Positions 34,208 to 41,396 of a DNA stretch of 64,000 nucleotides are shown piece by piece. The translations under genes and the position numbers were made by a program. Origin of the DNA: Streptomyces sp. RPT161. Lineage in GTDB: Bacteria; Actinomycetota; Actinomycetes; Streptomycetales; Streptomycetaceae. Position 1 is the stretch's first letter, and every line of letters begins with the position of its first letter. The stretch spans positions 1 to 64,000 of the forward strand of contig NZ_JAPZVN010000008.1 in assembly GCF_027533845.1 (NCBI RefSeq). The letters are read 5' to 3'. The notes under the pieces were generated by a model that saw only the letters and a program-made list of their open reading frames with translations, was not told where the DNA came from and ran no database searches.

Positions 34208-34292
34208 GGGCGCGGCCCCTTCCACGCGAACATGAGGACGGCTCATGATAGTTACTCGCCGCTGGAAGAACAGATCCTGCACAGTGGTTGGT

Positions 34293-34901
34293 ATGAAGTC
34301 CGCCCCGCTCCGCCGCCGTCCCGTGCAACAGCGCAGCCTGGAACGGTTCGAGCGGATCCTCGACGCCGGGGCGGAGCTGCTGGACGAGGCCGGGTACGGC
34401 GGGCTCACCACCCGTGAGGTGGCGCGGCGCGCCGAGGTGCCGATCGGCACGCTCTACCAGTTCTTCGCCGGCAAGGACGGGCTGGTGGCGGCGCTGGCCG
34501 CGCGCAATCTGGAGCGGTACCTGGACCGGCTGGCGCGGCGCGTGGAGGCGCAACCGCCTTCGGGTACCGGGGAGTTGGTCGACCTGGCCGTCGATGAGTT
34601 CGTCGCCATGAAGCGGACGGTTCCCGGGTTCGCGGTGGTGGACTTCGGGCTGACCGGGCGGCCCGGCACGGATGCGGAGCAGCACGTGCTGGACGACGTG
34701 CTGGACAACAACGCCACGGTGGCGGAGCGGTTGCGGGCCGCCGGCTCGCTGGAGGGCGTGGGTTCGGCACTCGCCCTGCGGGTGGCGGTGGAGTGCGCGG
34801 ACGCGGTGCTGCAACTCGCCTTCCGGGCGGACCCGGAAGGCGATCCGTCGCTCATCGCCGAGTGCAAGCGGGTGGTGCGGCTCTACCTGGGGGCGGTGTA
34901 G
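34293..34901 (+). CDS. TetR-family regulator, likely of the adjacent GH1 gene
   Basis: This 202-residue protein has an N-terminal TetR helix-turn-helix (RFERILDAGAELLDEAGYGGLTTREVARRAEVPIGTLYQFF split around residues 15-58) and a divergent C-terminal ligand domain with LVDLAVDEFVAMKRTVPGFAVVDFG. The ATG at 34293 gives the usual short basic N-terminus (KSAPLRRRPVQQRSLERF); the upstream in-frame ATG at 34245 has no good site. It is divergent from the beta-glucosidase. The ligand may be a beta-glucoside or aglycone, which is inference. Confidence 0.88.
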   Translation: MKSAPLRRRPVQQRSLERFERILDAGAELLDEAGYGGLTTREVARRAEVPIGTLYQFFAGKDGLVAALAARNLERYLDRLARRVEAQPPSGTGELVDLAVDEFVAMKRTVPGFAVVDFGLTGRPGTDAEQHVLDDVLDNNATVAERLRAAGSLEGVGSALALRVAVECADAVLQLAFRADPEGDPSLIAECKRVVRLYLGAV

Positions 34902-35796: not shown

Positions 35797-37404
35797 TCAC
35801 CCCGCGAAGTTCGCCCGCAGTTCGACCTTGCGCACCTTGCCGCTCACCGTCATCGGGAAGCTGTCAACGATCCGCAGATGGCGCGGAACCTTGAAGTGCG
35901 CCAGGCGCCCCCGGCAGAAGGCGGTGATCTCCTCCAGGGTGGGCTCGTCGGCCGCGTCGCGCGGGATGACACAGGCGAGGATCTCCTCGCCGTACCGCTC
36001 GTCGGGAACACCGACCACCTGGACGTCGGCGATCTTGGGATGGGTGTAGAGGAACTCCTCGATCTCCCGTGGATAGACGTTCTCACCACCACGGATGATC
36101 ATGTCCTTGATCCGGCCGACGATCGTGACGTAGCCGTCCTCGCGCATCACCGCCAGGTCCCCGGTGTGCATCCAGCGGGCGGAGTCGATCACCTCGGCGG
36201 TGCGCTGCGGCTCCTGCCAGTAGCCGAGCATCACCGAGTAGCCGCGGGTGCACAGCTCGCCCGCCTCGCCGCGCGGTACGGTCCGCCCGGTCACCGGGTC
36301 GATGACCTTGACCTCCAGGTGCGGCAGCACCCGGCCGACCGTCCCGGTTCGGCGCTCCAGGTCGTCGTCGGCGCGGGTCTGGGTGGAGACCGGCGAGGTC
36401 TCCGTCATCCCGTAGCAGATGGCCACCTGCGCCATGTGCATCTCGGCGACCACCCGTTTCATCACCTCCACCGGGCACGGCGATCCGGCCATGATCCCGG
36501 TGCGCAGCGACGACAGGTCGTACGAGGCGAACTCCGGCAGGTTCAGCTCCGCGATGAACATCGTCGGCACCCCGTACAGGGAGGTGCAGCGCTCCGCGGC
36601 CACCGCGCGCAGCGTGGCCGACGGGTCGAACGTCGGTGCCGGGATGACCATGCAGGCGCCGTGGCTGGTGGCGGCCAGGTTGCCCATCACCATGCCGAAG
36701 CAGTGGTAGAAGGGCACCGGCAGGCAGATCCGGTCCGCTTCGGTGTAGCCGACCAACTCCCCCACGAAGTAGCCGTTGTTGAGGATGTTGTGGTGGGAGA
36801 GCGTGGCGCCCTTGGGGAAGCCCGTGGTGCCCGAGGTGTACTGGATGTTGACCGGGTCGTCGCAGCTCAGCCCCGCCTGGGCGGCGGCTGGCTGGTCGGC
36901 CGGTACCGTCTCGGCGGCGGCGGTCAGTTCGTCCCAGCTCGGGTCGCCGATGTGGACCACGTCCTGGAGCGCCGGGCAGTCACCCTGGGTCTGTTCGACC
37001 ATCTTCCGGTAGTCACTGGTCTTGTAGGCGGTCGAGGCGACCAGCAGCCGCACCCCGGACTGGTTCAGGGCGTACGCCAACTCATGGACGCGGTAGGCGG
37101 GGTTGATGTTCACCATGATCGCGCCGATCCGCGCGGTGGCGTACTGGACCAGTACCCACTCCGGGCAGTTGACCGCCCAGATGCCGACCCGGTCGCCCTT
37201 GCCGACCCCCTTCGCCAGCAGACCGCGCGCCACCGTGTCGACCGCGCGCCCGAACTCCCGGTAGGTCCAACGCCGTCCGCTCGCCATGTCGACCAGCGCC
37301 TCGCGGTCCGGGAAGGCGGCGACCGCGCGGTCCAGACTGGCGCCGATCGTGTCACCGAGCAGCGGGGTCGTTCCGGTGCCGCTGCTGTACGAGAGTGTGG
37401 TCAT
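35797..37404 (-). CDS. Fatty-acyl-CoA synthetase (FadD-like)
   Basis: This 535-residue ANL-family ligase has [20 protein letters not shown] (P-loop), [32 protein letters not shown] and the catalytic Lys in [13 protein letters not shown] at the C-terminus. The [20 protein letters not shown] linker is typical of fatty-acid or medium-chain acyl-CoA synthetases. It likely activates a fatty acid for degradation or for lipid or secondary metabolism. The GTG or ATG near 37404 begins [10 protein letters not shown]. The TetR gene lies upstream on the same strand, 69 bases away, so it might be part of that regulator's unit. Confidence 0.92.
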
Positions 37405-37473: not shown

Positions 37474-38055
37474 CTATCCGCCGAGCCCCAGCGTCTCCCG
37501 GATCGCCGGGGCCAGCGTCGCCACGACCTCGTCCGGCGTCAGCGCGGTGACCGTCGGCAGCCGCAGCAGATAGCGGGTCAGGGCCAGGCCGAGGAGCTGG
37601 GCGGAGACCAGGCCCGCCCGGCGCCCGGCCGCCTCGGGGCCGATGACGGCGGCCAACGCCGGAGCGACCTGCACGCCGAAGATCTCCCGGGCGCGCTCCG
37701 CCGCGCGGTCGTTGGTGACCGCCGAGCGCAGAACCATCAGCAGCGCGTCGTCGGTCGGATCGCCCTCCCAGCGGTTGAGGAAGTGCCGCACCAGGACGGC
37801 GGGCACATCGCCGGGGGCGACGGCGGTGAGGTCGGGCAGCCGCAGGTCGACGGTGAGGGCGGCGTCGAACAGCCGCTCCTTGGTGCCGAAGTAGCGGATC
37901 ACCATCGACGGGTCGATGTCGGCGTCGGCGGCGATCGCGCGGATGGTCGTGCGTTCGTAACCCTGCGCCGTGAAGTGCTGACGCGCCGCGCGCAGGATCG
38001 CGGCGCGGGTGCGGTCGGAGCGCCTTTCGGCGGCCGGTTCGCGGTGCTCGGGCAT
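37474..38055 (-). CDS. TetR-family repressor, probably autoregulated
   Basis: This 193-residue TetR regulator has the helix-turn-helix at residues about 15-60 (RAAILRAARQHFTAQGYERTT, ADADIDPSMVIRYFGTKERLF) and a TetR_C-type ligand domain (LLMVLRSAVTNDRAAERAREIF, LLGLALTRYLLRLP). The ATG at 38055 is supported by the family N-terminus (PEHREPAAERRSDRTR). It is divergent from an FAD monooxygenase gene. The 121-base spacer contains four copies of GCCAAC-N4-GTTGGC-like sites, so it very likely represses itself and the monooxygenase and responds to that enzyme's substrate. Confidence 0.92.
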   Translation of the reverse strand: MPEHREPAAERRSDRTRAAILRAARQHFTAQGYERTTIRAIAADADIDPSMVIRYFGTKERLFDAALTVDLRLPDLTAVAPGDVPAVLVRHFLNRWEGDPTDDALLMVLRSAVTNDRAAERAREIFGVQVAPALAAVIGPEAAGRRAGLVSAQLLGLALTRYLLRLPTVTALTPDEVVATLAPAIRETLGLGG

Positions 38056-38069
38056 GGCGCCCAACTTAT

Positions 38070-38099
38070 GCCAACAACCGTTGGCCCACAAGTGTTGAC
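38070..38099. promoter_or_regulatory. TetR operator pair 1
   Basis: GCCAAC-AACC-GTTGGC (38070-38085) overlaps by 2 bases with GCCCAC-AAGT-GTTGAC (38084-38099). Both have a 4-base spacer, and they are offset by 14 bases. The pair lies next to the TetR start codon. Confidence 0.7.
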
Positions 38100-38124
38100 A
38101 TCGCTCTCTGGGCGGGCGCACGAT

Positions 38125-38154
38125 GTCAACAGACGTTGGCCAACAGCTGTTGGC
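38125..38154. promoter_or_regulatory. TetR operator pair 2
   Basis: GTCAAC-AGAC-GTTGGC (38125-38140) overlaps by 2 bases with a perfect 16-base palindrome, GCCAACAGCTGTTGGC (38139-38154). It has the same 14-base offset as pair 1, lies exactly 55 bases from it, and is just upstream of the monooxygenase gene. Confidence 0.75.
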
Positions 38155-38176
38155 ACACCCGCTGGAGGGGGTTCCC

Positions 38177-39298
38177 ATGAACGCCGCAGCACTCCCCGCC
38201 CGTACCGATGTCGCGATCGTCGGCGCCGGGCCGACCGGGCTCGCGCTCGCCATCACCCTCGCCTCGGCCGGCATCGACTTCGTGCTGCTCGACCGGCAGG
38301 AGCAGGCCGCCCACACCTCGCGCGCCGGAGTGGTGCACGCCCGCACCCTGGAGGTGCTCGACGAGCTGGGCACCGCGCCCGAGCTGATCGCCCGGGGCCG
38401 CCGGGTCGGCGAGGCCACCGTGCGCGACGGGGCACGGCGACTGCTGCGGGTGCCGTTCGACGGCCTGCCCACCCGCTTCCCGTTCGCGCTGGTGATCCCG
38501 CAGTACGAGACGGAGGACGTGCTCGCCTCCCGGCTGCGGCAGCTCGGCGGCGAGGTGCACCGGCCGTACGAGGTCACGGACGTCATTCAGGACGCCGGGG
38601 GCGCCACGCTGACCATGGCGTCCGGCGAGACCCTGCGCGCGGCGTACGCGGTGGGCGCGGACGGCATGCACAGCGTGGTCCGGGAAGCGGCCGGCATCGG
38701 GTTCGAGGGCGGTTCGTACGGCGAGTCGTTCGTGCTCGCCGATGTCACCCTGGAGCAGGACCGGGCGGACGACGGGCTGATGCTGCAGTTCGGCGCGGAC
38801 GGGCTCTTCTTCATCGTGCCGTTCCCCGGCGACCACTACCGGGTGGTCGCCACCGTTGAGGACGCGCCCGCCAAGCCGGAACTCCGCTACGTCCAGGACC
38901 TGTTGGACGCCCGCGACGCGGGCCGGGCGAAGGTCAGGGACCTCGTCTGGTCGTCGCGCTTCCGCATCCACCACCGGGTCGCCGACCGCTTCCGCGCCGG
39001 TCGGGTGCTGCTCGCGGGCGACGCCGCGCATGTGCACAGCCCGCTGGGCGGTCAGGGCATGAACACCGGCATCCAGGACGGCTACGCCCTCGGCCGGGCG
39101 CTCGCCGAGGGGCGGCTGGACACCTACGAGGAGCGCCGCCGCCCGGTCGCGCGCCGGGTGGTGGCGTTCACCGACCGGCTGACCCGGATCGCCACGGGGC
39201 CGCGAGTGGTGCGCGACACACTCCTCCCCCTGGTGGGCCGCGTACCGGCGCTGCGCGACCGGCTGGCCATGGAGCTGGCGGAACTGAACTACCGCTGA
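38177..39298 (+). CDS. FAD-dependent aromatic-ring-type monooxygenase
   Basis: This 373-residue flavoprotein of the PHBH/UbiH group has the FAD dinucleotide motif VAIVGAGPTGLALAITLASAG (residues about 12-32), a GADGMHSVVRE segment (the DG motif) near 160, and the second FAD motif RVLLAGDAAHVHSPLGGQGMNTGIQD near 275-300. It would hydroxylate an aromatic or polyketide-like compound using NAD(P)H and O2. It is shorter than typical 500-residue PgaE/RdmE-type enzymes because it lacks a C-terminal thioredoxin-like domain. Divergence from the TetR gene and the operator array implies induction by its substrate, perhaps an antibiotic; that is inference. Confidence 0.92.
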   Translation: MNAAALPARTDVAIVGAGPTGLALAITLASAGIDFVLLDRQEQAAHTSRAGVVHARTLEVLDELGTAPELIARGRRVGEATVRDGARRLLRVPFDGLPTRFPFALVIPQYETEDVLASRLRQLGGEVHRPYEVTDVIQDAGGATLTMASGETLRAAYAVGADGMHSVVREAAGIGFEGGSYGESFVLADVTLEQDRADDGLMLQFGADGLFFIVPFPGDHYRVVATVEDAPAKPELRYVQDLLDARDAGRAKVRDLVWSSRFRIHHRVADRFRAGRVLLAGDAAHVHSPLGGQGMNTGIQDGYALGRALAEGRLDTYEERRRPVARRVVAFTDRLTRIATGPRVVRDTLLPLVGRVPALRDRLAMELAELNYR

Positions 39299-39337: not shown

Positions 39338-40051
39338 ATGCCGCAGGTGGCCGAGAGCGCGCTCGCGCTCGTCGTCGAGGACGACACGACCCTGGCCCAG
39401 GCCCTCACCACCGCGTTGGAAGTGCACGGCTACCAGGTGGTGGCGGTCGGTGACGGGCTGCTCGGCCTGGAGCGGATCCGTACCACCGCACCCGATGTCG
39501 TACTGCTCGACGTGATGCTGCCGGGGTTGGACGGGTTGACCGTCTGCCGTCGGGTGCGCGCGGACGGGGACCGCACGCCGATCCTGATGCTCACCGCGCG
39601 CTCAGCGGTGGCCGACCGGATCGACGGGCTGGACGCGGGCGCGGACGACTACCTGCCCAAGCCGTTCGACCTGGACGAACTCATCGCGCGGGTCAGGGCG
39701 TTGCTGCGCCGCGCCAGGCCGGAGGCCGCCGCGGAGCTGCCGGACGAACTGGGCTTCGGCGACCTGGTGCTGGACACCCGCACCCGGCGCGCCAGGCGCG
39801 GCGGGCGGACCATCGACTTCACGCGCACCGAAGCGGTGCTGCTGGAGCTGCTGATGACCAACGCCGGACAGGTGCTGACCCGGGATGTGATCACCGACCG
39901 GGTGTGGGGATACGACTTCGGGCCGTCGTCCAACTCCCTTGAGGTGTACGTGGGATATCTGCGCCGCAAGCTGGAGGAGGGCGGCGAGCCGCGGATCGTC
40001 CATACCGTGCGCGGCGTCGGATATCTGCTGAGCGAGCGCCGCAGTGTCTGA
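39338..40051 (+). CDS. OmpR-family response regulator
   Basis: This 237-residue response regulator has a receiver domain (residues about 8-120) with the acidic pair VVEDD, phospho-acceptor Asp in VVLLDVMLPG, Thr in MLTARS and Lys in YLPKPF. It has a C-terminal winged helix (IDFTRTEAVLLELLM, VWGYDFGPSSNSLEVYVGYLRRKLE, IVHTVRGVGYLL). The stop overlaps the sensor kinase start by 8 bases, giving a coupled two-component operon. It follows the monooxygenase by 39 bases, so read-through is possible but not necessarily functional. The stimulus is unknown. Confidence 0.95.
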   Translation: MPQVAESALALVVEDDTTLAQALTTALEVHGYQVVAVGDGLLGLERIRTTAPDVVLLDVMLPGLDGLTVCRRVRADGDRTPILMLTARSAVADRIDGLDAGADDYLPKPFDLDELIARVRALLRRARPEAAAELPDELGFGDLVLDTRTRRARRGGRTIDFTRTEAVLLELLMTNAGQVLTRDVITDRVWGYDFGPSSNSLEVYVGYLRRKLEEGGEPRIVHTVRGVGYLLSERRSV

Positions 40052-41396
40052 GGCCCGGCGCAGGGAGCGGCGACATGCTCCGCTGCGGCTGAGGTTGGCG
40101 GTGGCCACCGCGCTGGCCGTCGCCGCGGTCGCGGCGGGGGTCTGCTGGGCGGCGTACATCGCCGTCGGGCAGCAGCTCGGCCGGGAGCTGAACCTCGGCC
40201 TGATCCGCGAGTCCAACCGGGTGGTGCCGCAGATACGGGCCGGGGCCGCGCCGCCGGGCGGTGAGTGCGCATGGCTCGGCTCCCCCGACTGCGTCCAGGT
40301 GATCCGCTCCGACGGCACGGTGACGCCCGCGCCCGCCTCCGATCCCTACGTACCGCCGGTGGTGCCCGGCGCGGTGGCGGTGGCCAGGGGCGAGCGCGGT
40401 GCGTACTTCTCCGACTCGGCCTTCCACGGTCTGCCGTTCCGCAGCTATCTCGCCCCGGCCGGGCCGGGCCGGGCGGTGCAGGTGTCGATGCGGACCGACT
40501 CGATCCAGCACAGTGAGCGGCGGATCGCGGTGGCGCTGGTGGTGATCGGCGCGGCGGGCGCGGTTCTCGCCGCGGTGCTCGGCTACGCGGTGGCCCGCAC
40601 CGGGCTGCGTCCGGTGGCCCGGCTGACCAGGACCGCGGAGACCATCGCGGCCACCCGTGACCCGCGGCACCGCATCGAGGTGCCGGGGCGGGACGAGTTG
40701 TCGCGGTTGGCGGGCAGTTTCAACGTGATGCTGGGCGAGTTGGAGCAGGCGCTGGACGCCCGGCGGCAGATCGTCGCGGACGCCTCGCACGAACTGCGCA
40801 CCCCGCTCACCGGGTTGCGCACCAACATCGCGCTGCTCTCGCACGAGCTGACGGGTGAGCAGCGGCAGCGGGTGAACGGTGCGCTGTCCGCGCAGATCAC
40901 CGAGATGAGCGGACTCGTTGACGATGTGATCGAACTGGCCCGGGGCGATGAGACGTCCGGTGAGCCGGAGGACGTACGGCTGGACGAGATCGTCGGGCAC
41001 TGTGCCGCGGCGGCCCGCCGCCACTGGCCCGCGACGCCGTTCTCGGCGGAGCTGGAGCCGTGCGTGGTACGCGGGGTTCCGGCGCGGCTGGCGCGGGCGG
41101 TCACCAATCTGCTGGGCAACGCGGCCAAGTTCTCCCCGCCGGGGGCGGGGGTCGAAGTCCGGCTCGCGGACGGCGAGTTGACTGTCCGGGACCATGGCCC
41201 CGGATTTACGGAAGATGACCTTCCGTATGTCTTCGACCGCTTCTACCGGTCCCAGTCGGCACGCGGCCTGCCCGGCTCGGGCCTTGGCCTGGCCATCGTC
41301 CAGCAGGTGGCCCACGCGCACGGCACCACCGCCGAGGCGGGAAACGCCCCTGGCGGCGGGGCGGTGCTGCGGGTTCGGTTTCCGGTGTCGCGGTGA
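40044..41396 (+). CDS. Sensor histidine kinase of the OmpR-type pair
   Basis: This 450-residue membrane kinase has an N-terminal transmembrane helix (AVATALAVAAVAAGVCWAAY), an extracellular domain of about 110 residues, a second helix (AVALVVIGAAGAVLAAVLGY), a HAMP linker, the H-box DASHELRTPLTGLRTNIALL with the phosphorylated His, and N/G boxes (NLLGNAAKFSPPGAG, VRDHGPGF, GSGLGLAIVQQ). The GTG start at 40044 lies within the end of the regulator gene. The extracellular part has a Cys pair (GECAWLGSPDC) that may form a disulphide. The signal is unknown. It ends convergent with xdhC. Confidence 0.94.
   Translation: MSEARRRERRHAPLRLRLAVATALAVAAVAAGVCWAAYIAVGQQLGRELNLGLIRESNRVVPQIRAGAAPPGGECAWLGSPDCVQVIRSDGTVTPAPASDPYVPPVVPGAVAVARGERGAYFSDSAFHGLPFRSYLAPAGPGRAVQVSMRTDSIQHSERRIAVALVVIGAAGAVLAAVLGYAVARTGLRPVARLTRTAETIAATRDPRHRIEVPGRDELSRLAGSFNVMLGELEQALDARRQIVADASHELRTPLTGLRTNIALLSHELTGEQRQRVNGALSAQITEMSGLVDDVIELARGDETSGEPEDVRLDEIVGHCAAAARRHWPATPFSAELEPCVVRGVPARLARAVTNLLGNAAKFSPPGAGVEVRLADGELTVRDHGPGFTEDDLPYVFDRFYRSQSARGLPGSGLGLAIVQQVAHAHGTTAEAGNAPGGGAVLRVRFPVSR

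Follow-up and report, generated by a model that had tools for sequence, protein, structure and literature searches.

The DNA between a TetR-family gene and a divergently transcribed FAD-dependent monooxygenase gene carries repeated palindromes in the window (the whole 64,000-nucleotide stretch of Streptomyces sp. RPT161 analysed here), which raises the question of what these palindromes control. Our analysis makes it very likely that the TetR-type protein is a local, autoregulating repressor for which the palindromes form a row of operators, and that it would block both divergent promoters from there.

Palindromic sites in the tetR-oxygenase spacer

The spacer is 121 bp long (38056-38176). The flanking genes and the predicted operators are listed below.

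37474-38055, minus strand: tetR-family repressor gene, 193 aa (TetR_N, PF00440, E=3.4e-13; TetR_C_16, PF17920, E=1.7e-29), with relatives in 73 divergent loci
38177-39298, plus strand: FAD-dependent monooxygenase gene, 373 aa (FAD_binding_3, PF01494, E=5e-71)
38070-38085, no strand: predicted operator 1, GCCAACAACCGTTGGC, inside the predicted tetR -35/-10 spacer (38069-38085)
38084-38099, no strand: predicted operator 2, GCCCACAAGTGTTGAC, overlapping the predicted tetR -35 and oxygenase -35; two mismatches
38125-38140, no strand: predicted operator 3, GTCAACAGACGTTGGC, over the expected oxygenase transcription start (probably near 38131)
38139-38154, no strand: predicted operator 4, GCCAACAGCTGTTGGC, from sequence match and conservation

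The repressor contains the TetR_N helix-turn-helix (PF00440, 49.6 bits against a cut-off of 24), and its structural model, with a mean pLDDT of 90.6 and ten helices, has the all-helical fold of the TetR family. A structure search gave 13 matches, described as TetR-type regulators, at E values no higher than 0.001 and with TM-scores of 0.5-0.7; the first three were chains of the TetR regulators 2np3 and 2guh. These 13 matches added nothing on the seating of the repressor on DNA. As judged by the sites and their conservation, a palindromic predicted operator adjoins the repressor's own gene, as expected of a TetR-family member. The top sequence matches of the oxygenase among solved structures were rifampin and polyketide oxygenases, which fits a predicted action on aromatic compounds.

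An earlier note on this DNA had described four GCCAACN4GTTGGC-like sites, and a mismatch scan of the window confirmed them: the sites starting at 38070, 38084, 38125 and 38139 have 0, 2, 1 and 0 mismatches, respectively, and fit the form GYCAAC-N4-GTTGRC. Its measurements were also correct, namely a 14-bp offset with a 2-base overlap within each pair, 55 bp between the pair starts and a spacer of 121 bp; with 10.5 bp to the turn, the 55 bp make 5.2 turns. The pairs do stand beside the two genes but do not strictly abut them: the left pair is 14 bp from the tetR ATG (38055), an interval that holds the probable tetR -10, and 22 nt separate the right pair from the oxygenase ATG (38177).

Conservation of the sites in divergent loci

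Loci with related genes were taken from two sources. The first was a set of 100 genomes, mostly of the same family and order, from which loci were kept for 30 of the best matches, the window's own included; the second, comprising 84,980 species genomes, gave 63 loci. From the combined 93 loci we dropped 10 lacking an oxygenase match at E 1e-5 and 3 in which the genes were not divergent, leaving 80 in which both genes were matched and divergent; removal of 2 + 5 duplicates left 73, window included. Kept among them were L042 and L075, in which only the start of the oxygenase was matched, and L089, whose oxygenase match had 28% identity. The named records among these loci, from the 84,980-genome collection, include Streptantibioticus, Streptomyces, Actinacidiphila, Micromonospora, Amycolatopsis, Nocardia, Mycolicibacterium, Gordonia and Actinomadura; some of them duplicate other loci, and each locus was counted once.

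With position 2 free as Y and position 15 as R, 297 sites with at most two mismatches were found in the 73 spacers, compared with 1-9 in each of 20 dinucleotide-shuffled sets. Every spacer (73/73) had at least two sites. The distance between neighbours was exactly 14 bp in 149 of 224 cases and 40-46 bp in 67 of 224. The repeats are thus conserved in relatives, a point on which the earlier note had staked its proposal. Because the motif served to gather the site classes, part of the invariance of CAAC and GTTG in them comes from that choice.

A left and a right block could be separated in 70 of the 73 loci (L086, L088 and L089 were not splittable), and a 66-locus set was obtained from these by setting aside L011, L026 and the loci with a block distance outside 38-47 bp. 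Several loci depart from the common layout. In L086 and L088 both sites lie on the same side; L009 retains nothing but a decayed left block; and the block distances of L011, L013, L026 and L029 differ from the rest. L022 has tetR and the left block alone, with no oxygenase in its stretch, and at L023/L079 (one place) tetR is broken, with no oxygenase match and no site near tetR. Similar arrays occur in L024, L030 and L064 without a match to this oxygenase, indicating that the target of the array is not always this gene.

Two arrangements were observed in passing. L033 has, upstream of its matched tetR, another tetR-like reading frame together with an additional 2+2 array of sites; its oxygenase gene is downstream in the same direction and is preceded by a 1+2 array. 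In L042 and L075, the oxygenase match covers only residues 1-58 and 6-84, respectively, and the sites are kept; these oxygenases may be truncated or frameshifted.

Overlap of the sites with both predicted promoters

The predicted promoter and start elements are as follows.

38063-38068, minus strand: predicted tetR -10, TAAGTT (TANNNT-N7-ATG, conserved position)
38086-38091, minus strand: putative tetR -35, TTGTGG, 17 nt from the -10
38053-38055, minus strand: tetR start codon, probable 5' end of a leaderless mRNA; in frame, 7 nt after TAAGTT
38095-38100, plus strand: predicted oxygenase -35, TTGACA, from the GTTGAC of the inner-left site
38119-38124, plus strand: predicted oxygenase -10, CACGAT, after an 18-nt spacer; weak in the window
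38164-38171, plus strand: probable oxygenase ribosome-binding site, GGAGGGGG, judged by sequence
38056-38071, no strand: possible remnant of an outermost operator unit, overlapping the tetR -10; by eye, 6 of 12 motif positions agree, a weak match

In 72 of the 73 loci a TANNNT hexamer preceded an in-frame tetR ATG or GTG, at a distance of 7 nt in 70 of them and 6 nt in 2, in a test that allowed any in-frame start; the sole miss, L043, has no in-frame start by the rule of the script. At twelve alternative spacings, 0-9 of 73 loci passed this test. A -10 at this distance is that of leaderless actinobacterial mRNAs, and its conservation indicates that the tetR mRNA is probably leaderless. Leaderless mRNAs are common in Streptomyces: the available part of one report counts 264 S. 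coelicolor mRNAs with leaders shorter than 10 nt and names the Tn1721 TetR repressor among the best-studied leaderless cases (PMC4681348).

The tetR -10 is closely merged with the operator row. The bases directly upstream of it form an operator, whose half-site positions are kept in 65-70 of 72 loci, and in 54 of 70 a recognisable outermost site contains the -10 itself. Outer-left sites have A at position 13, and hence GTAGGC, in 55 of 61 cases, compared with 0/66, 0/66 and 3/72 in the other classes; on the opposite strand this GTAGGC makes the tetR -10. The window's own outermost unit may, on the weak match listed above, have decayed to the tetR -10 and the start codon.

On the oxygenase side, A at site position 15 turns the right half-site into GTTGAC, which was found in 64/66 inner-left, 0/61 outer-left, 12/66 first-right and 22/72 other right sites. 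In 44 of 70 loci this TTGAC has a full TANNNT 17-19 nt downstream; the others, among them the window, have a partial one. Matches are favoured here, since the best of four spacings was scored. A consensus promoter scan called no promoter in the region. Since operator, -35, -10 and start codon are so tightly merged, the motif, the promoters and the leaderless start become predictable for the whole set of oxygenase loci.

On these grounds the spacer would be the common control region of an autoregulating TetR-family repressor, whose dimer would bind 16-bp GYCAAC-N4-GTTGRC operators arranged as two blocks with a 14-bp pitch. The left block would occupy the tetR promoter core, with one site in the -35/-10 spacer and one over the tetR -35, and would also cover the oxygenase -35; the right block would begin at the oxygenase -10 and span the expected start site. 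Without inducer, the bound dimers would exclude RNA polymerase from both promoters, and a ligand, which may be the substrate of the oxygenase or a related compound, would free the repressor; tetR would be made from a leaderless mRNA. That the sites serve as TetR operators common to the two divergent promoters, as first proposed, is strongly supported by conservation over 73 loci, the promoter fit and the absence of other paired matches with 0-1 mismatch in the genome (see below).

A row of variable length

The two pairs had been called identical. As direct copies they agree at 79% over 33 nt, and they fit about equally well as inverted repeats (35-nt arms 38069-38103 and 38121-38155, 83%). The array is a row at a 14-bp pitch and of variable length, not a fixed pair of pairs, and the window's layout is one case of it. 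Typical rows have mostly 1-3 sites by tetR and 1-5 by the oxygenase gene. The left/right numbers in 70 loci were 2/2 in 36, 2/1 in 14, 2/3 in 9, 3/2 in 3, 1/2 in 3, 1/3 in 2, and 4/2, 2/5 and 3/5 once each; the 4/2 locus, L026, is irregular and was mis-split by the script, and L011 is irregular as well. On a quick tree of the repressors of 66 loci, built by quick search from matched segments only, the right-block number changed at least 14 times and the left-block number at least 7 times.

The right block consists of one complete GYCAACN4GTTGRC site in 11 of 66 loci. The basic unit is therefore the 16-bp palindrome, and the alternative that the operator is the inner GTTGGCCAAC palindrome was rejected. 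The one-site right blocks also lend indirect support to one dimer per 16-bp site, and cooperativity between dimers on the predicted sites is plausible.

An unlikely alternative is that at most one dimer binds each overlapping pair, the extra sites being alternatives that raise capture without cooperativity. Adjoining 16-bp sites do share 2 bp, and right blocks of a single site exist; however, mutual exclusion does not demand an exact 14-bp pitch, and this pitch is held across row lengths (149/224). Moreover, a 14-bp step turns neighbouring sites by about 120 degrees (14 x 34.3 = 480), which by this arithmetic may leave room for both dimers. We prefer a row of operators that several dimers would occupy. 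A more elaborate form of it is possible, though we put it forward only tentatively: TetR dimers may stack at 14-bp steps of about 120 degrees each into a three-fold spiral lattice, with the number of sites per side tuned by evolution to set promoter sensitivity and cooperativity. Natural rows of different length, belonging to one repressor family, offer a ready test of how repeat number and pitch affect repression.

Distance between the blocks

The earlier note had also suggested, as a possibility, a DNA loop closing both promoters. In such a model, dimers on the left and right pairs would touch and a short loop of about 41-55 bp would silence both. Two blocks at roughly similar distance do occur in most loci, and from the inner-left to the first-right site we measured 41 bp in 20, 44 in 18, 42 in 9, 43 in 8, 45 in 6, 40 in 4 and 46 in 1 of the 66 loci, so that 29 of 66 have 41-42 bp, near four turns. 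The set had been filtered to 38-47 bp, and within it all values from 40 to 46 bp occur, which covers roughly 200 degrees of helix; in four other loci the distance is 52-56 bp. The blocks thus do not keep a helical phase as loop sites would, and a fixed-phase loop was rejected on this spread. A single right site in 11 of 66 loci, the one-sided L022, L086 and L088, and the overlap of each block with predicted promoter elements also speak against the loop, which we regard as very improbable. Most of the variation falls into the interval from the oxygenase -10 to the right block, which measures -2 to 6 nt across the 66 loci in a promoter assignment with the spacing preset to 16-19. The spread is compatible with a promoter constraint but not with strict helical phasing.

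Specificity within the genome

Across the 64-kb window, matches with 0-1 mismatch were three of the four array sites and nothing else. With up to three mismatches there were 41 matches against a shuffle mean of 48.5, the chance level, so the signal of the array lies in the quality and clustering of its sites and not in their number. This loose total is what would be expected if the sites were random sequence with no regulatory role, a reading made negligible by the conservation over 73 loci, the clustering, the pitch and the promoter fit.

In the 7.69-Mb genome, the paired pattern with 0-1 mismatch was found only as the window's two pairs. Elsewhere it gave 11 rows, all with three mismatches, which is above the 1 and 3 of the backward control. 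Exact single sites elsewhere in the genome were limited to C77:11136 and C129:189289, neither with a neighbour at 14 bp, and the backward control gave 2 per strand. With no more exact sites than the control, a wider regulon was rejected.

Around two paralogues of the repressor (43% and 33% identical), stretches of 4.1 and 3.5 kb contained no site with two or fewer mismatches. The closer paralogue reads VDPALVHHYFG, compared with IDPSMVxRYFG in most of 28 aligned orthologues; it departs at I47, M51 and R54, recognition-helix positions that are invariant in the 28 orthologues.

Comparison with known systems

The Tn10 tetR-tetA region has two separate operators, compared with the overlapping rows here. 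Its divergent layout is alike, with two 15-bp operators in the spacer that repress both genes, according to the available part of PMC3511530. The available text of the same report describes a nearer parallel in S. coelicolor, where the TetR-family gene SCO7222 is divergent to the monooxygenase gene SCO7223, as here, and the spacer holds three palindromes and gives three shifts; the motif, TGGAACGNCGTTCCA, differs from that of the window (PMC3511530). SAV576 of S. avermitilis likewise has multiple sites: its divergent promoter region contains three 15-bp palindromes, of which one overlies the regulator's start codon. As far as the accessible part of the source goes, its motif, CCRTACRVYGTATGS, differs from the window's, and its start codon is about 380-400 nt downstream of the transcription start, unlike that of the predicted leaderless tetR (PMC3742746).

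The excerpted account of MabTetRx/MabTetX from Mycobacterium abscessus also places a TetR-family gene beside a FAD monooxygenase gene (PMC6143652). In that account the operator is 35 bp, similar to the 30 bp of a pair here, and the inducers are tetracyclines; the two genes form one operon, an arrangement that the divergent genes of the window do not share. The likeness to the window's system is one of gene content and operator length (PMC6143652). According to the part available of another report, QacR, CprB, CgmR and Ms6564 place two dimers on one 22-32 bp operator, and CprB is an autoregulator, as predicted here (PMC4150764). The two CprB dimers bind a single 22-bp operator from opposite sides, whereas here complete palindromes follow one another at a 14-bp pitch and the rows extend beyond two palindromes (PMC4150764).

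Multiple operators in divergent TetR-family promoters (SCO7222, SAV576) and a TetR-family repressor beside a FAD monooxygenase (M. abscessus) are thus known already. Among the literature matches listed, covering titles and abstract openings with subscription journals mostly outside, we found no report of this operator, which is weak evidence of absence; the accessible parts of PMC4482099 and PMC5895659 hold nothing on this motif.

Neighbouring genes

An acyl-CoA ligase gene (AMP-binding; 35797-37404, minus strand) lies 69 bp downstream of tetR and is possibly part of its operon; only a few loci had high-identity matches to it. Genes for a response regulator and a histidine kinase (39338-41396, plus strand) begin 39 nt past the oxygenase stop. 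Matches to them were confined to L001, L002, L031 and L079, which are the window and Streptantibioticus records, in a comparison in which loci of the 100-genome search extend too little past the oxygenase gene. A second TetR-family gene (34245-34901, plus strand) has other C-terminal domains, TetR_C_22/15, and the opposite-strand ORF beside it presumably encodes a family 1 glycosidase.
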